DNA from: Salinicola avicenniae
Lineage (GTDB): Bacteria > Pseudomonadota > Gammaproteobacteria > Pseudomonadales > Halomonadaceae
Direction: 5' to 3'
DNA: 64,000 bases
Assembly: GCF_023736115.1 (NCBI RefSeq)
Contig: NZ_JAKQZC010000005.1
Coordinates: 62,001-126,000, forward strand
The position numbers were made by a program, and so were the translations under genes. Positions 17,134 to 27,215 of the stretch are shown one piece after another (position 1 is the stretch's first letter; every line of letters begins with the position of its first letter). Below the pieces are notes generated by a model that saw only the letters and a program-made list of their open reading frames with translations, was not told the DNA's origin and did no database searches.

Positions 17134-18021
17134 ATGATTCGCAAGGCCGTACTGCCCGTAGCCGGATTCGGCACCCGTTGCCTGCCAGCCTCCAAGGCGA
17201 TTCCCAAGGAGATGATCACCATCGTCGACAAGCCGGTGATTCAGTACGTGGTCACCGAGGCGGTGAAGGCCGGCATCAAAGAAATCGTTTTGGTCACCCA
17301 CTCCTCCAAGAGCGCCATCGAGAACCATTTCGACAAGCACTTCGAACTCGAGAATCAGCTCGAGGCCAAGGGCAAGGACGAGCTCCTAGACGAGCTGCGC
17401 AACATTATTCCGGACGACGTCAATATCATCAGCGTGCGTCAGCCTGAAGCACTGGGGCTGGGCCATGCCATACTCTGCGCGCGTCCCGTCGTCGGCAACG
17501 ATCCGTTCGCCGTGCTGCTGCCCGACGTGCTGATCGATGACGACAATCGGCCGCAGAACGATCTCGCCGGCATGATTGCCGCCTACGAAGAGACCGGCAA
17601 GGCGCAGATCATGGTCGAGACCGTGCCGCATGAACTGACCTACAAGTACGGTATCGTGGCGCTCGAGGGCGATGAGCCCGCACCGGGTCAAAGTGCACCG
17701 CTGACCGGCATGGTCGAGAAGCCGAAGGTCGAGGAAGCGCCATCGACGCTGGCAGTGATCGGTCGTTACCTGCTGCCGGGCGAGATTTTCCCCATTCTTG
17801 CCCAGACCGCTCCCGGTGCCGGTAACGAAATCCAGTTGACCGATGCTATCGAGACGCTTCGTCAGTCCAGCGGTGCCGCGGCCTATCGCATGCAGGGCCA
17901 GACCTATGACTGCGGTAGCCAGTTGGGCTATCTCGAAGCGACGCTGGCTCTGGGCAAGAAACATCCCAAGCTCGGCGACGGCTTCCGCAAACTGATCCAG
18001 CAATACGCGTCCGAGGACTGA
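17134..18021 (+). CDS. galU: UTP-glucose-1-phosphate uridylyltransferase
   Basis: 295 residues. It makes UDP-glucose for envelope and osmolyte sugars. The N-terminal signature AGFGTRCLPASKAIPKEM (residues 10-27) is the nucleotidyltransferase motif, with the usual Thr of LPAT replaced by Ser. VEKPK, which binds glucose-1-phosphate, and a conserved ...YDCGSQLGYLEA segment are present. Length matches GalU. The next gene starts four bases downstream and encodes a UDP-glucose dehydrogenase homologue, so the pair looks like a UDP-glucose to UDP-glucuronate unit, but the second enzyme appears inactive (see next entry). Confidence 0.96.
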   Translation: MIRKAVLPVAGFGTRCLPASKAIPKEMITIVDKPVIQYVVTEAVKAGIKEIVLVTHSSKSAIENHFDKHFELENQLEAKGKDELLDELRNIIPDDVNIISVRQPEALGLGHAILCARPVVGNDPFAVLLPDVLIDDDNRPQNDLAGMIAAYEETGKAQIMVETVPHELTYKYGIVALEGDEPAPGQSAPLTGMVEKPKVEEAPSTLAVIGRYLLPGEIFPILAQTAPGAGNEIQLTDAIETLRQSSGAAAYRMQGQTYDCGSQLGYLEATLALGKKHPKLGDGFRKLIQQYASED

Positions 18022-18025
18022 ATCC

Positions 18026-19306
18026 ATGCGGGTGGTCGTACACGGTAGCGAACTGGCAGCGGCCACCGCCGCTGCGGCGTTATGCTCGGTGGGGCATCAG
18101 GTCAGCTGGATGCCGCACGCTGAGTTTCCCTGGCAGAGCCTGAAGGACGCCGACTGGCTGGTCAGCGAGCCGGGGCTCAAGACGCAGATCGAAACGGGCG
18201 AGGCGTCCGGCCAGCTGACGCTGGTCGATGCGGTACCTGCGGACCTGGATGCCGACATTCACTGGCTGGCGTTGTCACCGGATCAGCGCGAGGCGGCCGA
18301 AGCCTATGTGGCACAGGTGCCCGGGCAGCAGACGACACCGCTGGTGATCGTTAACAACTCCACGTTCCCTGTCGGCCAGACGGAGAAGCTGGAGGCGCTG
18401 CTCGGTCATAGCGGTCAGGTGGCGGTGGCGCTGCCCGACCGGATCGAGGAAGGGCGTGCCTGGGATACCTTCACGCGGCCGGCGCACTGGCTGCTGGGCA
18501 GCGAAGACGAGTGGGCCACCCAGCAGATTCGTGAACTGCTGCGCGCCTTTAACCGCCGCCACGAAGTGTTTCAATTGATGCCACGTCGGGCTGCCGAGTT
18601 GACCAAGTTGGCCATCAACGGCATGTTGGCTACCCGTATCAGCTTCATGAACGAACTCGCCGGTCTGGCGGATTCTCTCGACGTGGACGTCGAGTACGTT
18701 CGTCAGGGCATGGGCGCAGATACGCGCATTGGTTTTGAATATCTCTATCCGGGATGCGGGTTCGGTGGTCCCAGCTTCTCGCGCGACCTGATGCGTCTCG
18801 CCGATGTCCAGCACTCTACCGGGCGGGAATCTCATCTGCTCGAGCACGTGCTCGATATCAACGAGGGCAAGAAGGAAACTCTGTTCCGCAAGCTGTGGAA
18901 TCATTTTCAGGGTGAACTGTCCGGACGCACAGTGGCGATCTGGGGGGCCGCATTCAAGCCAGGCACCGCGCGCATCGACCATGCGCCGGTGCTGACCCTG
19001 CTGGAGGCGCTGTGGGCGCAGGGCGTGACCGTACGGGTTCACGATCCGGCGGCGTTACACGCACTTCGTGAGGTTTACCCGGATCAGCCGCAGTTGACGC
19101 TGTGTGAGGGGGACTTCTATGCCGCCTGCGAGGGGGCGGATGCCCTGATGCTCGTTACCGAGTGGAAATGCTACTGGAACCCGGACTGGCGTCGGTTGCT
19201 GCAGGCCATGAATACGCCGCTTATCCTCGATGGTCGGAACATCTACGATCCGACCTATGTTGCCTCCCGCGGGTTTGTCTACCGCGGCATCGGCCGCCGC
19301 GCTTAA
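18026..19306 (+). CDS. UDP-glucose dehydrogenase homologue lacking the catalytic cysteine
   Basis: 426 residues, clearly of the UDP-glucose/GDP-mannose dehydrogenase family: AELTKLAINGMLATRISFMNELA (residues 190-212) keeps the conserved Lys and Asn, and the C-terminal domain has AIWGAAFKPGTARIDHAP. Key catalytic features are altered. The active-site motif GFGGSCFPKD reads GFGGPSFSRD (245-254), so the nucleophilic Cys is Ser250. The Rossmann loop GxGYVG reads GSELAA (7-12). The NPEFLREG motif reads LPDRIEEG. Length is normal and there is no frameshift, so it is a maintained, diverged protein rather than a broken gene. It may bind sugar nucleotides or partner GalU; oxidation activity is doubtful. 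Confidence 0.88.
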   Translation: MRVVVHGSELAAATAAAALCSVGHQVSWMPHAEFPWQSLKDADWLVSEPGLKTQIETGEASGQLTLVDAVPADLDADIHWLALSPDQREAAEAYVAQVPGQQTTPLVIVNNSTFPVGQTEKLEALLGHSGQVAVALPDRIEEGRAWDTFTRPAHWLLGSEDEWATQQIRELLRAFNRRHEVFQLMPRRAAELTKLAINGMLATRISFMNELAGLADSLDVDVEYVRQGMGADTRIGFEYLYPGCGFGGPSFSRDLMRLADVQHSTGRESHLLEHVLDINEGKKETLFRKLWNHFQGELSGRTVAIWGAAFKPGTARIDHAPVLTLLEALWAQGVTVRVHDPAALHALREVYPDQPQLTLCEGDFYAACEGADALMLVTEWKCYWNPDWRRLLQAMNTPLILDGRNIYDPTYVASRGFVYRGIGRRA

Positions 19307-19314
19307 GCGCTGTC

Positions 19315-19339
19315 GACCCGCCATCATGTGTGGCGGGTC
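19315..19339. terminator. Hairpin between convergent genes
   Basis: A perfect nine-base inverted repeat GACCCGCCA / TGGCGGGTC with a seven-base loop sits eight bases after the ugd-like stop codon and overlaps the stop of the opposing gene by two bases. There is no T-tract, so termination strength is uncertain; it could serve both strands. Confidence 0.45.
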
Positions 19340-19928
19340 AGCTATCCACCTCCACGCCGAGCTGGGCGAAAGCCCAGTTCAGGTGGGGCCACAGCGCATC
19401 GAAGTAGCGTCCGGCATCCTCACCGAAGTCGATACGCCGTGCCTCGGGGCAGAGCGTGACAGCCAGCAGCGGCGTCGCCTGCTCGAGGCGCACGCCTGCG
19501 GCGCCTACGCGCAGGTCAAGCGTTCCATCGCGTTCGCGTGCGAGCCAGCTCCAGCCTTGCGCAGACGCCTGGGTAACGATACTGGCCCGCCACCGCTCCC
19601 GAAGGGCGCCAACGCCACCGAAATCGCTGACGATACGCTGCTCCAGCCATTCGCTGGGCAGCACGCTCCAAGGTGTCAATGAGTGCCAGAATACGGTCAG
19701 GTTCCAGGCTTCTGCCGCCGCGAAACGCGTCGCCGGATCGGCGGCATCAGTCAGCGCTGCCAGAGAGTGTCGGTTACCGACGGAAACGAGGGTGTTGAGA
19801 CGATCCAACTGGCGGCGATGATAGTGGCTGTAGAGCAGATCTACCTGCGCGCGCGACCATGCCGGCTCCAGCGAGTGGCGCTCGAATGGCAGGGCGGGAA
19901 GCTCGAAGGAAAAATTCGAAACGGACAT
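19338..19928 (-). CDS. Fe/Mn superoxide dismutase homologue with all metal ligands lost
   Basis: 196 residues. The framework of iron/manganese SOD is kept along the whole length: SFELPALP at the N-terminus, AWNLTVFW, SDFGGVGALRERW, GWSWLARERDGTL, TPLLAV and LWPHLNWAF. Set against E. coli SodB as I recall it, the four metal ligands are replaced: His27 by Leu32, His74 by Leu77 (WNHTFYW becomes WNLTVFW), Asp157 by Thr158 and His161 by Glu162. The second-shell His31 and Tyr35 are also gone. It therefore cannot bind iron or manganese in the usual way. The start at 19928 fits the MSxFELPALP beginning. Non-enzymatic function, unknown. Confidence 0.85.
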   Translation of the reverse strand: MSVSNFSFELPALPFERHSLEPAWSRAQVDLLYSHYHRRQLDRLNTLVSVGNRHSLAALTDAADPATRFAAAEAWNLTVFWHSLTPWSVLPSEWLEQRIVSDFGGVGALRERWRASIVTQASAQGWSWLARERDGTLDLRVGAAGVRLEQATPLLAVTLCPEARRIDFGEDAGRYFDALWPHLNWAFAQLGVEVDS

Positions 19929-20192: not shown

Positions 20193-21209
20193 ATGCCACC
20201 ACACTCCGACGACCATCGCGTCAACTCCATCGTACCCGACAGCAGCGACAGGGCGGTTCATCGTGGCTCTGCTCGCCATGCTACCCCGTCTCCAGCGTCA
20301 CCCGGTCGCCGTTCGCCGCGCGTCTGGCCGCTCTGGCTGCTGATACTTTGCCTCATTGCCGCGCTGGTCGGCGGGAGTTGGTATTACCTCCAGGCGCAGA
20401 GAATGCAGGATGCGCGTCTTGATCGCTTCGATCAGCGCCTGGAATCGACCGGCAGCACGCTCGACGCTTCCGGCGAGAGCCTGCGCGCGGAATTCGACCG
20501 TCTGCAGGATCAGCTTGAAGCCACCCGAGCGGCGGTCGGCAGCCTGGAGACGCGAGTCGCCGATTCACAAGATGACGCGTCGTTGGATGCGCGTCTGCAG
20601 GCACTCGAAGAAAGTGACGACAATACGCGAGCGCTGATCGGTGCCTTGCAAGCCTCTTATGCGGCGCTGGAAAGCACCGGCCAGAGCGAGCGAGCCGCGT
20701 TGGCGAGCCGACTGGATTCGATCGAACACGCGCGGCAGCGCGACGGCGAGCGTCTCGAGGCCCTGTCGCAGACGCTGGACGAGGCCCGCGAGCAGCGTGA
20801 AGCGCTCGCCGCTCGGTTGGAAACAGCCAACACGCAGCGGGCGCAGCTCGAGGCGCGCCTGGACGAGCTGGGGGGCGGTGATGCCGCAAACGTCGATCAG
20901 CTGTCGCAACGAGTCGATAACTTGGTCAGTCAGGTGAACAGCCTGAGCGAGCAAGCGTCGCCGTCTCAGGAAAGCGTCGATCGCCTGCGGGATGCGGTAA
21001 CGGAACTTCGTCAGGGGCAAACGGCTCTCAATGCAGGAATGGAGTCGCTCCAGTCTCGTCTCGACGCGTTGCCGAGCGGTGTCAGCGAGTCTCAGCTTCG
21101 CGAAATCCGCGAACGTGTGGGGTCGCTCGAGGCCAGTCGTTCTCAGCTGACGCGCCGTGTGACGTCGCTGATTACCGATGTATCCAATCTGCAGCGTGGC
21201 GGGGGTTGA
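20193..21209 (+). CDS. Membrane-anchored periplasmic coiled-coil protein, unknown function
   Basis: 338 residues. A short cytoplasmic N-terminus with several Arg is followed by one membrane helix (about 45-65). The rest (66-338) is predicted to be periplasmic coiled coil, rich in heptads of Leu/Ala with Arg/Glu/Gln, containing repeated LQARLD/LEARLDEL-like segments. No catalytic motif is visible. It ends four bases before tamA, so it is probably co-expressed with tamAB. I start at 20193 (MPPHSDDH); the frame is open to 20052 but without supporting signals. Coiled-coil proteins of this kind are often annotated as ATPase by spurious similarity; I see no Walker motif. Confidence 0.75.
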   Translation: MPPHSDDHRVNSIVPDSSDRAVHRGSARHATPSPASPGRRSPRVWPLWLLILCLIAALVGGSWYYLQAQRMQDARLDRFDQRLESTGSTLDASGESLRAEFDRLQDQLEATRAAVGSLETRVADSQDDASLDARLQALEESDDNTRALIGALQASYAALESTGQSERAALASRLDSIEHARQRDGERLEALSQTLDEAREQREALAARLETANTQRAQLEARLDELGGGDAANVDQLSQRVDNLVSQVNSLSEQASPSQESVDRLRDAVTELRQGQTALNAGMESLQSRLDALPSGVSESQLREIRERVGSLEASRSQLTRRVTSLITDVSNLQRGGG

Positions 21210-21213
21210 TCGC

Positions 21214-23052
21214 ATGTCGCAACATCAGGTCCTACGGATGGGACTGCTCTGCCTGACGCTGCCGGTTGCCGGGCAGGGATGGGCGCTGGAGGTCACGGTG
21301 CAAGGCATCGGCGGTGCGCCGGCGGACAACATCGTCAATATGCTTTCCGAGCTGGATGCCGACAGTCAGGCCACTCGCGAGCGTCTTGACGGTGTCGTGC
21401 GTGACCGTACCGAGCAGGCGCTGCAGGCCTATGGCTATTATGACACGTCGCTGGCCACGCGTTATCCGGATGACGACAACGAGCGGGTGGTCATCCATGT
21501 GGATGCCGGCGAACGTACCACCATCACGCAGCTGGCCGTCTCCCTCGAGGGCGATGCCGAGCATGATGAGGCTTTCGACACTGCGATGGCCGGCAATCCG
21601 CTGAAGGTTGGTGATCCGCTGGTGCATTCCCGCTATGACGGTTTCAAGGGGCAGCTTTCGACGCTGGCTCTGGAACGCGGCTACTTCAATTCGCGCTTTC
21701 GTCAACAACGCATCGAGGTACGCCCCTGGGAAAGCAGCGCCCGGATCTTCCTCGACTTCGACAGTGGCACCCGCTATCGCTTCGGCCACGTGCGCTTCGA
21801 CGGCAGCCAGATCGAGCCGCATCGCCTCGAGAACATGGTGCCGTTCGCCCCGGGCGACCCTTATCTGGCTGGCGACCTGGCCGAACTCAATCAAAACCTG
21901 GGGCAGACCGAGTGGTTTCGCGGCGTGGCGGTCCGCCCTCGGGTCAACGAAGACGCACCGCCGACGCCCAGCCGCTGGTGGCGCGAGTCCACGGGGCGAG
22001 ACATCATCGAAGATCCGTCGCGGGTGCTGGGCGGGCCAGGGCTACGTGTGGCGCGCGAACTGACGGACACACACCCCACCGTGGTCCCGGTCGATGTCGA
22101 GCTGACGCCGGCTGATCGCCATCAGTTCGAGGTCGGTATCGGTTACGCCACCGACGTCGGTCCGCGCACGCAGTTTTCCTGGACCATGCCGTGGCTCAAT
22201 CGCTACGGGCATAGCCTGACCAATTCGCTCTACCTTTCCGGCCCTGAGCAGCGCTTCAACGGTGAGTATGTCATTCCGCTGGCCAACCCCCTGCGGGACA
22301 GCTATCGCGTGCGCTACGGGCTCAAGAATATCGATAACGAGGATACGCAGAGCCTGGAGAGCTCGGTGCAGCTGGCCCGGCACTGGGAGTTTGCCAACGG
22401 CTGGGAGCAGGACCTCTACTGGCAGACCACCTACGAGGACTTTACCCAGGCCGATCAGGATGATGCCGTTCTGCTGCTCTATCCTGGCATCAGCTGGACA
22501 CGCACTCGCAAGCGTAACGACAGCTTTCCGACCTGGGGCGATCGCCAGCAACTGACGCTGGAGTGGTCCGACCCTGCCTGGGGCTCCGACGCGCGCTTCG
22601 TGCGCAGCACGTTCAGTTCTCACTGGGTGCGTATGCTCGGCCGTGAGAACCGCTTTGTCGGCCGTCTCGGCGGCGGCGCGATGGCGACCAACACGTTCGA
22701 TAAGGTGCCTCCCTCGCTGCGGTTCTTCGCCGGTGGCGATCAGAGCATTCGAGGTTACGATTACGAGAGTCTGTCGCCAGAGAACGATGACGGCGAACTG
22801 CTCGGTGGTCAGCATATGTTGACCGGCAGCGTCGAGTACCAGCGCCATATTACCGGCAACTTCTGGAGCGCTACCTTTGTCGATACGGGCAATGCCTTCG
22901 ACGACTGGTGGCCGGAAACCCTCAAGACCGGTGCCGGTGTCGGCGTACGTTGGATTTCGCCTGTCGGACCGATCCGTTTCGATATTGCCCACCCGTTTGA
23001 CGACGAGGAGGATTCTTGGCGTCTCCATTTCTCCATCGGACCGGAATTCTGA
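21214..23052 (+). CDS. tamA: Translocation and assembly module outer membrane protein TamA
   Basis: 612 residues, Omp85/BamA superfamily. A signal peptide (about 1-24, ending QGWA) precedes three POTRA domains (about 25-265) and a 16-strand beta-barrel. The barrel contains GGDQSIRGYDYESL near residue 507, the conserved L6 RGY motif, and the protein ends in aromatic GPEF. TamA works with TamB in outer membrane homeostasis, now linked to phospholipid transport as well as autotransporter assembly. The ATG at 21214 is chosen because it directly precedes the signal peptide. It overlaps tamB by 37 bases. Confidence 0.95.
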   Translation: MSQHQVLRMGLLCLTLPVAGQGWALEVTVQGIGGAPADNIVNMLSELDADSQATRERLDGVVRDRTEQALQAYGYYDTSLATRYPDDDNERVVIHVDAGERTTITQLAVSLEGDAEHDEAFDTAMAGNPLKVGDPLVHSRYDGFKGQLSTLALERGYFNSRFRQQRIEVRPWESSARIFLDFDSGTRYRFGHVRFDGSQIEPHRLENMVPFAPGDPYLAGDLAELNQNLGQTEWFRGVAVRPRVNEDAPPTPSRWWRESTGRDIIEDPSRVLGGPGLRVARELTDTHPTVVPVDVELTPADRHQFEVGIGYATDVGPRTQFSWTMPWLNRYGHSLTNSLYLSGPEQRFNGEYVIPLANPLRDSYRVRYGLKNIDNEDTQSLESSVQLARHWEFANGWEQDLYWQTTYEDFTQADQDDAVLLLYPGISWTRTRKRNDSFPTWGDRQQLTLEWSDPAWGSDARFVRSTFSSHWVRMLGRENRFVGRLGGGAMATNTFDKVPPSLRFFAGGDQSIRGYDYESLSPENDDGELLGGQHMLTGSVEYQRHITGNFWSATFVDTGNAFDDWWPETLKTGAGVGVRWISPVGPIRFDIAHPFDDEEDSWRLHFSIGPEF

Positions 23053-26000
23053 TTCGGTTAGTTCTTTTTTTGGTCCTCTGGTTCGTCGGTCTGCTTCTGG
23101 CGCTCGCCGGAACGGCGCTGTCGCCTTGGGGCAGTCAATGGCTCTTCGAGCAGGCACAGTCGCGAGGCTGGGTTCAGGCCGAGCGCTTTGCCGGGGCACC
23201 GCTGGATGCGCTGACTCTCGAGGGTTTCACGCTGACGGCGGGTACGCTCGATGTCTCGATCGACTACCTTCATCTCGCCTGGGCGGACGACTGCCTGCTC
23301 TCGGGACGCCTCTGTCTGGACGATTTCACCGTCGAGGGCGCTCGTGTGCGGGGCGGCGAGAGCGCAAGCGAGCCGCCGCCGGCAGCCGCCGAGGCAGACT
23401 CGGGGGGAGGGTTACCGGCATTTTCCGTACCGCTGCCGATCGAGATCCGTCGCGTGCGGCTCAATGATGTCGGCATTCAGCTCGCCAACGGCACGGATCT
23501 TCATTGGGCGCACTTCGAGACCGGCGCCACGCTGTCCGGCTCGCGCGTGTCGCTGAAACCGACCACGCTGGCGGAAACTCGCGTGACGCTGCCGGCAAGC
23601 GAGGAGGATCACCGCTCGCTGGGCGACACGCTGGCTTCGCTCGAGCCCGGCCCGGGCGTCGTCAGCAGTGCCGCCATCGAGAGTGCCCGGACGCTGCACG
23701 AAGATGCCTCTCGGCGAGATCCCGCCGCCGTTTCGGCGGACAACGAGGGCGCGGCTTCCATGACGAGTGCTGTCGTCGCGGACGGCGGGCTGGATGGTCC
23801 GCTAACGCCGTTGACACTCGCGGCGGCCGCCAACGTTTCCGGCGCTAGCGCGTCGGCGGAAAAACCGCCGCTGGCCGGGGTGATCGAACGGCAGCTGCGA
23901 GTGCTTCAAGAGCAGCTCCCGGATTTTACGCTGCCTATCGAGGTCGAGATCCCCAGTCTGGTGATTAGCGATGCGCGCTTGGACGGTCCTTCACCGCAAC
24001 GGCTGGATCACCTCGAACTGGCGGCCTATGCCATCGATCACAAGGTAGAAATTCGACGTCTCCGGCTCCGGTCGCCGGAAGCGGATGCCGACCTGCGCGC
24101 GGAAGCCGATTTGACAGGGGATTTTCCGCTCTCCCTGCGGCTTGACGCCCGACTCAAGCGGACGCCGATTTATGGGCAGACCGTATCATTGGATATCGAT
24201 GGCGATTTGACCGACCTCGACGTTGCGCTCCAGACTTCGGGCAACGCCGAGGCCTCGCTCGATGCCCATCTGAATCTCATGGCAGAGACGCTGCCGTTTT
24301 CGCTTGCGCTTCAAGGGCGGGCTCTGCGCTGGCCGTTGGCATCGCGCGACTTCGCACCGTTCACCGACCTGGCAGAAGGGCTCGATGAATCGGCCATTCT
24401 CGTCGCCCGACAGCTTCACGGTATCGCGTTGGAGACCGATGGCGATTCGGCGCCCTACCGGCTTGATCGCCTGTCCCTACGGGCCGAGGGCGATCTCTCC
24501 GGGTATCAGGCCAATCTTGAGCTGGCGGGCCAGGGTCCCGAGCTGCCTCCGGTGACGCTATCGTTGGCCGGCCGCGGCGATCTGGCCCAGTTTCACTGGC
24601 AGCCGCTCGACGTCGCCAGTCAGAACGGCACTTTGGCGAGTACGGGAACGGTGCGTTGGACGCCGACGCTGTCCGCCAGCGTCGATCTGAATCTCTCGCG
24701 ATTGCCGCTGCAGGCATTCACCCAGGCGGTCAGCGGTCAGTTGAATGGTCAGGCTCGTCTGGCGTTTGCCATGGCCCCGGAGGGCGGCTGGCAACTCGCC
24801 TTGCCGACATTGGCGATCGATGGCCAGCTGCAACAGCGGCCATTGCGTCTGAATGCGGCGCTGGATGGCAACAGTCAGATGCAGTGGAACATTCGGCGAC
24901 TGGACCTGCGGCAGGGCAATAACCGCCTGACGGCCAGCGGACGACTGGATGAACGCATCCAACTCGATGGCCGGGTCGATGCGCCCAATCTTGCCTCGAT
25001 CCTGCCGCAGCTTGCCGGCACGCTGCAAGGCGCGTTCCACGGGCGGGGGACGCTGGAACGACCGCAGATCGATCTGCAACTGCAGGGGGATAACGTAGCA
25101 TTCGCGCAGAACCAGCTGCAGCGCCTGACGCTGTCCGCTCAGTCCGCGGGCACGCAGGATCCGACGTTCGAGGTCGATCTTGACGCGGACGGTGTCGAGG
25201 CCGGCGGGCAGCGTCTCGAGTCACTGGCCCTCGATCTGAGCGGACGCCTGTCTCAGCACCAGCTATCACTGGCGCTCATCGGTGGTGAAGGGCTGCCAGT
25301 CTCTCGCGCATCGCTGGAGCTGCAAGGTGGCTTGAATCTCGACAGCCAGCGCTACCGGGGGCATCTCGCGCCACTTGCCGTCTCGACCGACTACGGCGAT
25401 CTCGCGCTGCGTGAGGCGCTCGACTTTACTGCCAATCTTGCCACCGCCAGCGCGACGGTCGAACCCTTCTGTCTCGACCGCCGGCAGGGTGGCGCACTCT
25501 GTCTGACCGAGCGCATGAATGCCTCCGCGGATCAGGGGCGGGCCGCGCTGTCGCTCGAGGAGGTGCCCATGGCGCTGCTCGACGCCTTTCTGCCCCAGGG
25601 GTGGCAAGCCGACGGTCGTACCGACGGACGCCTGATCGCCAGCTGGTCCCGCGGCGGGCAGGCATGGGCGGCAGCGGCCGATATCGACAGCCAGGTGGCC
25701 GTCAGTGGTGTCGATGCGCGGGGCGCGGCCTGGCAGGTGCCGGAAGCGGCGCTGTCACTATCGCTGGAAGCCAACCAGCGTCAGGTGCAGACCCAGCTCG
25801 AGCTGTCACTTCAGGATGCCGGACGCTTGCGACTGCAGGCGCAGGTGGATGACCCGGCCGGCGCCGGTACGCTGCAAGGCCGATTGCAGCTGGAAAATCT
25901 GCGTTTCAGTCCCTATCGCCCACTGGTGGCCGGTATCGATCAACTCGAGGGCGCTCTCGATGGCGATGTGGCCTTGGGCGGCAACCTCGCCATGCCCTCG

Positions 26001-27215
26001 CTTGACGGCAACGTCGAGATTCGCGATGTGCGTGTCCGCGGCGGCGTCTCGCCGGTCGCGATCACCGACGCCCGTCTGCAGATGGCACTCCGTGGCCAGA
26101 CCTCGACGCTGGAAGGCCATGTGCAGAGCGATGATGGCCGCCTCGAGCTCGATGGCGACGCGGACTGGTCGGATCCGGCCAACTGGCGCGCCAATGCGTC
26201 TATCGATGGCCAGGAGTCGCCGCTGCTGATCGCGCTGCCGGCCTACGGCCGACTTCGGGTGGCGCCCGATATCCAGATTCAGGCTCTCCCGCAGCGTCTG
26301 CGAGTGCGTGGCGATGTCAATGTGCCCTGGGCGCGGTTGGACATCGGGCAGCTTCCAGCGTCGGCCCAAGCACCGAGCAGCGATACGGTGATCATCAGCG
26401 AGGAGGAGGATCGCCAGCAGCGAGCTGCCGCAGCGGCCGAGGCCAACGATCAAGGGGCCGATACCGCGCAGGCGCTGGCCGACGCTGGCATGCAGCTCGA
26501 TGTACTTGTCGATCTGCATCTTGGGCCGGACATGCAGCTCGAGGCCTATGGCCTCGAGGCGGGGTTGCAGGGAGAGCTGCAGGTGAGACAGGGCACGGGG
26601 CCCGTGCAGCTATTCGGCGACGTCAATCTCGTCGATGGTACCTACACGTCTTTCGGTCAGGATTTGATCATTCGTCAGGGGCAGGTGCTGTTCAGTGGGC
26701 CGGCGTCGCAGCCCAGCCTGCGGTTCGAGGCGATCCGCAATCCCGATACCACGGAGGACGACGTCATTGCCGGCCTGCGCGTGACGGGGCAGGCCTCCGC
26801 GCCGCGCTTGACGATCTTCTCCGAGCCGGCGATGACCGAGAGTCGCGCGCTCTCCTATATTCTGCGTGGGCGGGCTCCCGAGGATTCCGGTAGTGGCGAC
26901 GATGCGCTGACCTCGGCATTGATCGGGCTGTCGTTGTCGCAGACCGGCAGCGCTGTCGGACAGGTCGGGGAGGTATTCGGTGTCGAGGATCTGAGTCTCG
27001 ATGCCTCGGGGGCGGGTGACGATAGCCAGGTGGTTGTCAGCGGCTACGTCTTCGACGACTTGAAGGTGAGCTACGGCGTCGGCATATTCTCTCCTATCGC
27101 CGAGCTGACGCTGCGCTATCGCCTGATTCAGAACCTCTACCTGCAGGCGGTCTCAGGCGCTGCCCAGGCGCTGGATCTCATTTATACCTTCAGTCTGGGG
27201 CGCAGCGGCCCCTGA
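23016..27215 (+). CDS. tamB: Translocation and assembly module inner membrane protein TamB
   Basis: 1399 residues. An N-terminal membrane anchor (about 10-31) is followed by a very long beta-rich periplasmic region of the AsmA-like/bridge type and the C-terminal TamB (DUF490) domain (about 1080-1399). TamB spans the periplasm between the inner membrane and TamA. The start is TTG at 23016, with GAGGAGG eight bases upstream, inside the 3' end of tamA. No ATG with comparable support exists nearby. A low-complexity Ala/Glu/Gly stretch (about 112-130) and an extra loop (about 195-290) make the N-terminal part slightly longer than in E. coli (1259 residues). Confidence 0.94.
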   Translation: MASPFLHRTGILIRLVLFLVLWFVGLLLALAGTALSPWGSQWLFEQAQSRGWVQAERFAGAPLDALTLEGFTLTAGTLDVSIDYLHLAWADDCLLSGRLCLDDFTVEGARVRGGESASEPPPAAAEADSGGGLPAFSVPLPIEIRRVRLNDVGIQLANGTDLHWAHFETGATLSGSRVSLKPTTLAETRVTLPASEEDHRSLGDTLASLEPGPGVVSSAAIESARTLHEDASRRDPAAVSADNEGAASMTSAVVADGGLDGPLTPLTLAAAANVSGASASAEKPPLAGVIERQLRVLQEQLPDFTLPIEVEIPSLVISDARLDGPSPQRLDHLELAAYAIDHKVEIRRLRLRSPEADADLRAEADLTGDFPLSLRLDARLKRTPIYGQTVSLDIDGDLTDLDVALQTSGNAEASLDAHLNLMAETLPFSLALQGRALRWPLASRDFAPFTDLAEGLDESAILVARQLHGIALETDGDSAPYRLDRLSLRAEGDLSGYQANLELAGQGPELPPVTLSLAGRGDLAQFHWQPLDVASQNGTLASTGTVRWTPTLSASVDLNLSRLPLQAFTQAVSGQLNGQARLAFAMAPEGGWQLALPTLAIDGQLQQRPLRLNAALDGNSQMQWNIRRLDLRQGNNRLTASGRLDERIQLDGRVDAPNLASILPQLAGTLQGAFHGRGTLERPQIDLQLQGDNVAFAQNQLQRLTLSAQSAGTQDPTFEVDLDADGVEAGGQRLESLALDLSGRLSQHQLSLALIGGEGLPVSRASLELQGGLNLDSQRYRGHLAPLAVSTDYGDLALREALDFTANLATASATVEPFCLDRRQGGALCLTERMNASADQGRAALSLEEVPMALLDAFLPQGWQADGRTDGRLIASWSRGGQAWAAAADIDSQVAVSGVDARGAAWQVPEAALSLSLEANQRQVQTQLELSLQDAGRLRLQAQVDDPAGAGTLQGRLQLENLRFSPYRPLVAGIDQLEGALDGDVALGGNLAMPSLDGNVEIRDVRVRGGVSPVAITDARLQMALRGQTSTLEGHVQSDDGRLELDGDADWSDPANWRANASIDGQESPLLIALPAYGRLRVAPDIQIQALPQRLRVRGDVNVPWARLDIGQLPASAQAPSSDTVIISEEEDRQQRAAAAAEANDQGADTAQALADAGMQLDVLVDLHLGPDMQLEAYGLEAGLQGELQVRQGTGPVQLFGDVNLVDGTYTSFGQDLIIRQGQVLFSGPASQPSLRFEAIRNPDTTEDDVIAGLRVTGQASAPRLTIFSEPAMTESRALSYILRGRAPEDSGSGDDALTSALIGLSLSQTGSAVGQVGEVFGVEDLSLDASGAGDDSQVVVSGYVFDDLKVSYGVGIFSPIAELTLRYRLIQNLYLQAVSGAAQALDLIYTFSLGRSGP

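Follow-up and report, generated by a model that had tools for sequence, protein, structure and literature searches.

Here we report that sodL, a gene of Salinicola avicenniae, encodes a full-length superoxide dismutase (SOD) homologue in which all four metal ligands are replaced. Comparison of the aligned genes across the family shows its homology to SodB, orthology in place, loss of ligands and second-shell residues, repeated losses of this kind, and purifying selection on the remaining protein. We are rather confident that the Salinicola protein is dead as an enzyme but under selection. Our whole reading is that the ligands of an ancestral sodB were lost in the Salinicola ancestor, leaving a metal-free pseudoenzyme that would serve an older second role via its N-terminal arm; taken together, we consider this to lie slightly on the probable side of even. 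The window refers to the whole stretch of DNA analyzed, 64,000 nucleotides of contig NZ_JAKQZC010000005.1.

A superoxide dismutase homologue with its metal site replaced

The reading frame of sodL (19338-19928, minus strand) is unbroken and encodes 196 amino acids from the ATG at 19928. The N- and C-terminal SOD domains are both present in the single chain, i.e., Pfam Sod_Fe_N (PF00081) over residues 7-84 with 34.4 bits (cut-off 27) and Sod_Fe_C (PF02777) over residues 92-189 with 36.9 bits (cut-off 20.9). This agrees with an earlier reading of the letters alone (the sequence-only reading), which had described a full-length SOD framework in an intact frame of normal length. On the NCBIfam Fe-SOD equivalog, sodL reaches 84.3 bits vs a cut-off of 348, a value that a ligand-intact orthologue (G151, 284.1 bits) also falls below. 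The closest solved relatives of the protein are Fe-SODs. An AlphaFold model made from three sequences has a mean pLDDT of 72.9 and a pTM of 0.70, with residues 1-8 and 14-24 below 50, and its best match in the PDB is an Fe-SOD (Z 22.8, rmsd 2.1, 187 residues); structure prediction had been proposed as a check in the sequence-only reading, and the model does match Fe-SODs, with Z up to 22.8.

Please note that the ligands are numbered here as in the mature E. coli Fe-SOD, i.e., His26, His73, Asp156, and His160, which become His27, His74, Asp157, and His161 when Met1 is counted. Alignment to this enzyme places Leu32 (codon CTC, 19833-19835) at His26, Leu77 (CTG, 19698-19700) at His73, Thr158 (ACG, 19455-19457) at Asp156, and Glu162 (GAG, 19443-19445) at His160, all on the minus strand, and these are the four replacements that the sequence-only reading had named. 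Its claim that a second-shell His and Tyr are replaced is borne out as well: Tyr36 and Gln40 stand at the gateway positions His30 and Tyr34 (mature numbering), and a Glu at Gln69. The sodL protein thus has neither the three His and one Asp that a Fe/Mn superoxide dismutase enzyme requires as ligands nor the required second-shell His30, Tyr34, and Gln69. The DxWEHxYY motif, the Fe/Mn superoxide dismutase signature, is absent from sodL, where TLCPEARR stands. Fold and length are common to sodL and to the SodB of E. coli and of ligand-intact Halomonadaceae, and its gene place is common to related genera; in contrast to SodB, all four ligands together with His30, Tyr34, and Gln69 are replaced. By its homology to an enzyme and the absence of the conserved catalytic residues, sodL classes, as far as alignment goes, as a pseudoenzyme.

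The gene is present in all 18 Salinicola genomes, the other 17 copies being 48-56% identical to that of the window, and none of the 18 has any of the four ligands. Frameshift, sequencing error, or chance is ruled out by this same state and the open frames in 18 of 18 genomes. It might be argued that metal binding or superoxide dismutation persists through moved residues, as Asp or Glu occupies the fourth ligand position in 18/18 Salinicola copies and His is found at SodB positions 12, 31, and 78 (18/18 each) and 29 (17/18). However, every copy has Leu at the first His position and either Leu or Met at the second, and the ligand Asp has given way to Ala, Thr, Ser, or Pro. The His residues in question all fall outside the old ligand positions in the alignment, and two of them, His31 and His78, are common among the ligand-intact relatives too; we regard such persistence as highly improbable. 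Substitute His or Asp ligands, which in the sequence-only reading would have spoken against its claim, are not evident by alignment, and the new Salinicola His12 and His29 lie off the ligand positions.

Locus, orthology, and repeated losses in the family

On the left, the locus is marked by galU (17134-18021, plus strand; named from Pfam NTP_transferase and layout), followed by ugdL (18026-19306, plus strand), a nucleotide-sugar dehydrogenase homologue convergent with sodL. On the right, it is marked by a gene for a predicted coiled-coil protein (20202-21209, plus strand), followed by a tamA-like gene (21178-23052, plus strand) and a tamB-like gene (23016-27215), the last two tentatively named from sequence and layout. 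The order gph, ubiG, galU, ugdL, SOD, coiled-coil gene, tamA, tamB is found in all 17 other Salinicola stretches, with yciK also around sodL in 13 of them. In other genera, the SOD is flanked by ugdL and tamA in 19 of 20 stretches, the exception being G211; the SODs of those 19 are ligand-intact in 17 and dead, i.e., without the full ligand set, in two (G096 and G122), and the weakly conserved coiled-coil gene is unmatched in four of these other-genus stretches. Locus position was examined in the 130 of 190 genomes with enough flank, the other 60 being short stretches, and 105 of the 130 have ugdL there; the 25 without it have, for the most part, a SodB or another SOD gene located elsewhere. 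Since sodL sits where other genera have a normal Fe-SOD, it was a standing sodB gene that lost its metal site, and place and alignment make sodL orthologous, in place, to the iron SOD gene (sodB) of the family. Acquisition of a paralogue by transfer is rejected as first choice, because the locus holds a ligand-intact SodB in other genera.

The ugdL of the window reads GCGFGGPSFSRD at the place of GCGYGGSCFPKD in Cys-bearing relatives, and GSELAA replaces GxGYVG; the missing motif Cys we take to be the catalytic one. The sequence-only reading had called this convergent UDP-glucose dehydrogenase homologue active-site-defective, and without the Cys and with GSELAA for GxGYVG that description holds. 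The motif Cys is absent in all 101 family ugdL copies compared, so that the ugdL defect is older than and separate from the SOD loss. At 88-91% identity between the window and the 17 other Salinicola, ugdL is far better conserved than sodL, and it appears to be a pseudo-dehydrogenase that has been conserved next to galU and might regulate galU. A functional link between sodL and ugdL from their convergence is unsupported, as ugdL is Cys-less also where SodB is ligand-intact or where there is none at this locus. Cys-bearing ugdL homologues occur elsewhere in at least two genomes (G219 and G200), and the genome of the window has three further full-length ugdL homologues.

The family search covered 275 genomes, and one SOD-like sequence was read in 190; the remaining 85 divide into 75 genomes of genus group g23, six of which gave no match, and 10 from outside it. 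His26, His73, Asp156, and His160 are all kept in 154 of the 190 (six of these sequences are, by eye, another, Mn-like SOD, because those genomes had no better match) and not in 36, which comprise the 18 Salinicola, 17 of genus group g8, and G211. The last (HHGN, off-locus) is excluded, leaving the 35 dead genomes. Among the 17 from g8, ugdL is in the flank of 16, and in G099, where the contig is short, only the tamA side can be seen. Two ligands are lost in G130 and three in G087, G088, and G099; the others have lost four as aligned, with the truncated G113 copy judged at two ligand positions only and the alignment less sure in the C-terminal domain, which is shortened in most g8 dead copies. 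All 35 dead sequences have Leu or Arg at position 26, and 34 of them have Leu, Met, or Phe at position 73, where G130 keeps the His.

How many times the site was lost was read from a ugdL tree of 101 sequences (34 dead and 67 intact genomes; four short ugdL matches excluded), a quick LG+G4 tree in which one gene stands in for the species tree and the dead label is taken from the SOD alignment made before it. Parsimony on this tree gives five kept/lost changes, four of them forced by well-supported (starred) branches, and the dead groups are Salinicola, G087/G088, G130, G096 with ten others, and G076/G050. A topology that unites all dead rows is rejected (p-AU 2.2e-7), as is one that unites the g8 dead rows (p-AU 2.8e-6). 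A single origin of the dead forms is thus rejected on the neighbor-gene tree by AU tests, and the alignments together with this tree show that the metal site was lost several separate times, in parallel and in place.

Several ligand-intact relatives of the dead groups (G081, G061, G083, G085, G066, and G091) are without Tyr34, sometimes without other second-shell residues too. An ordered path in which the second shell goes before the ligands is nevertheless unsupported as a rule: G054 and G119, the nearest relatives of G087/G088, and several relatives of other groups keep the full second shell.

Selection on the dead proteins

In eight pairs of Salinicola copies, pN/pS ranges from 0.12 to 0.50 (pooled 0.34; each Fisher p about 1e-3 or less), with 0.12-0.26 in the five closest pairs; these are uncorrected pairwise proportions, the two most distant Salinicola pairs come close to saturation, and not every pair is strictly independent of the others. 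Six pairs of g8 dead copies give 0.27-0.65 (pooled 0.53), with p <1e-3 in five and one (0.45) not significant. The corrected pairwise ω is 0.11-0.30 in 11 Salinicola pairs and 0.16-0.51 in seven g8 dead pairs, vs 0-0.21 in the ligand-intact pairs (14 measurable of 15). From these values, constraint on the dead proteins is looser than on working SODs but still present, least clearly outside Salinicola. The selection test proposed with the sequence-only reading therefore returned purifying selection in 8/8 Salinicola pairs, and this supports, at the level of the coding sequence, its view that the protein has been kept for some non-dismutase job.

What is conserved differs along the chain, the scaffold being much better kept than the active site. 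The comparison took the 58 columns in which 133 ligand-intact relatives agree to 95% or more; here the five dead groups keep 11-56% at the nine active-site columns, 63-89% at the 38 other columns, and 72-100% at the 11 N-terminal columns.

These patterns have to be weighed against slow decay, i.e., the dismutase was redundant beside the other SOD, and the apparent selection is avoidance of misfolding plus lingering conservation. Another SOD with all four ligands is indeed found in every one of the 35 dead genomes (36 sequences, two of them from the genome of the window), and the gene is dispensable elsewhere: in 10/10 sampled genomes without SodB at this place (eight of g23, G107, and G147), ugdL lies directly beside the coiled-coil gene with no SOD match between. 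The weaker constraint outside Salinicola (pN/pS up to 0.65, one pair of six not significant) and the G113 copy, which reads only 133 amino acids, fit slow decay as well, and Tyr34 is missing in 16 of the 154 ligand-intact sequences, making a relaxed site common across the family. The same can be said of the ribosome-binding sites judged by eye, as the 18 Salinicola copies have four clear GGAG-type sites and two possible ones, by which expression of sodL may be low; all 17 g8 dead copies have a GGA-type site. However, the frames are open at full length in 18/18 Salinicola although synonymous divergence is near saturation (pS 0.58-0.65) and 56 of the 1764 single-base changes of sodL give a stop, the five closest Salinicola pairs are constrained, and a merely harmless gene could be silenced or lost. 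That the gene can be lost elsewhere makes its long retention in Salinicola meaningful. We consider slow decay unlikely as the overall account; outside Salinicola, in the g8 groups, it is a real rival, and some of these copies may be decaying.

A few observations belong beside these counts. The genome of the window has a third, ligand-intact SOD (L025, G000:C3:588322-588912), and the 17 other Salinicola have two SOD matches each. The G113 copy (L105) comes from an assembly that is 76% complete and is either a truncation or an assembly error. Four genomes (G191, G189, G153, and G174) have a more distant Cys-less ugdL with neither neighbor in the flank, two (G134 and G274) have only Cys-bearing ugdL homologues, and G022 has a weak match.

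The N-terminal arm and a proposed second role

The best-kept part of the Salinicola protein is the N-terminal arm with the start of the first helix, residues 8-38 in the window (SodB 2-32; 19815-19907, minus strand), which we propose as a binding surface. Over SodB 2-32, the 18 Salinicola copies have a pN of 0.050, a pS of 0.651, and 91% mean pairwise identity, vs a pN of 0.25-0.42, a pS of 0.58-0.63, and 42-65% identity in the other blocks. Constraint at the nucleotide level or from the antisense strand is rejected for this block, as its pS is no lower than elsewhere. The N-terminal block is best kept also in the eight dead g8 copies (80%; others 56-73%) and in 12 chosen ligand-intact g8 relatives (91%; others 72-87%), and because of the latter its constraint could be structural.

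The block is not shared evenly. All five dead groups keep 79-100% of the ligand-intact consensus over residues 2-9. Over residues 20-32, four of the five keep 12-28%, vs 77% in G130, so that the first helix cannot belong to any surface inherited in common. Salinicola has its own fixed residues at SodB positions 9, 11-13, 20-22, 24-26, 28, 29, and 32. Taken together, the alignments suggest that the arm is the shared part and that the start of the first helix changed in Salinicola and then became fixed.

The Salinicola-specific residues, the fact that four of the five dead groups depart from the ligand-intact consensus over residues 20-32, and the shortened C-terminal domain that most g8 dead copies show instead would all fit independent new functions, in which a dead SOD was recruited separately in each lineage, e.g., as a decoy or a partner subunit. 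Against this, each of the five dead groups still has the ligand-intact residue as its most frequent one at the same 22 positions, including P5, A6, L7, P8, L14, and P16 and thus residues of the arm, which fits one older role, or simply the fold. We think separate recruitment rather improbable.

The mechanism we propose for the preferred reading, an inherited second role, is as follows. All four metal ligands of the family sodB would have been lost in the Salinicola ancestor. The sodL protein would still adopt the SOD fold in a metal-free state, Leu taking up the space of two former His, and would not dismutate superoxide, which would be left to the other, ligand-intact SOD. We are less sure that the family SodB already had a second, non-catalytic role before catalysis was lost. 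Most likely, such a role would consist in binding another protein by means of the N-terminal arm (residues 2-9 of SodB and their surroundings); it would let catalysis go several times without loss of the gene, and the start of the first helix in Salinicola would have been fixed anew as part of the binding surface. Binding through the arm is a possible mechanism that we would place somewhat short of even. A dismutase-independent function of the family SodB, seated in the arm and scaffold, older than the loss of catalysis, and followed by removal of the metal site at least four times, is put forward tentatively and may well not hold. That residues 20-32 are unshared and that no ordered path is seen count against the whole reading, the binding mechanism, and the older role alike, and in favor of separate recruitment.

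Repeated loss of the site in place, with the protein kept, offers a natural experiment for a second SodB function and for the change from enzyme to pseudoenzyme. If our reading is true, two functions have been separated in nature, and each stage is represented by living species: an intact site, a changed second shell, two, three, or four ligands lost, and the gene absent. There is also a caution for annotation, as a gene of Salinicola or of some relatives that is called 'superoxide dismutase' on the basis of homology should not be credited as antioxidant capacity.

Comparable systems are known elsewhere. The fold serves as a subunit of large complexes in chains of the trypanosomal mitochondrial ribosome (6hiw, 7aor), which we take to be without metal ligands, and in the plastid RNA polymerase (8w9z, 8qma); these chains differ from sodL in being stable complex members in eukaryotic organelles. 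The Cu/Zn-SOD fold is unrelated to that of Fe/Mn-SOD. The Cu,Zn-SOD homologues of Shope fibroma virus, a leporipoxvirus, are presented as inert decoys under the term 'pseudodismutase' in a review of pseudoenzymes (PMC10211241). Like sodL as we read it, they are pseudo-dismutases with a non-catalytic job; unlike sodL, they are viral and bind a copper chaperone. A broad survey calls the Fe/Mn-SOD metal site universally conserved (PMC10172142), and among the matches listed from the open-licence literature there was no report of a bacterial Fe/Mn-SOD pseudoenzyme.

Changes around the metal site are also found where the ligands are intact: in genus group g10 (L045, L046, L086, and relatives), a ligand-intact SodB has Val, Ile, or Tyr for the gateway His30, a second shell that, judged from the alignment, would be unusual for a presumed active Fe-SOD.
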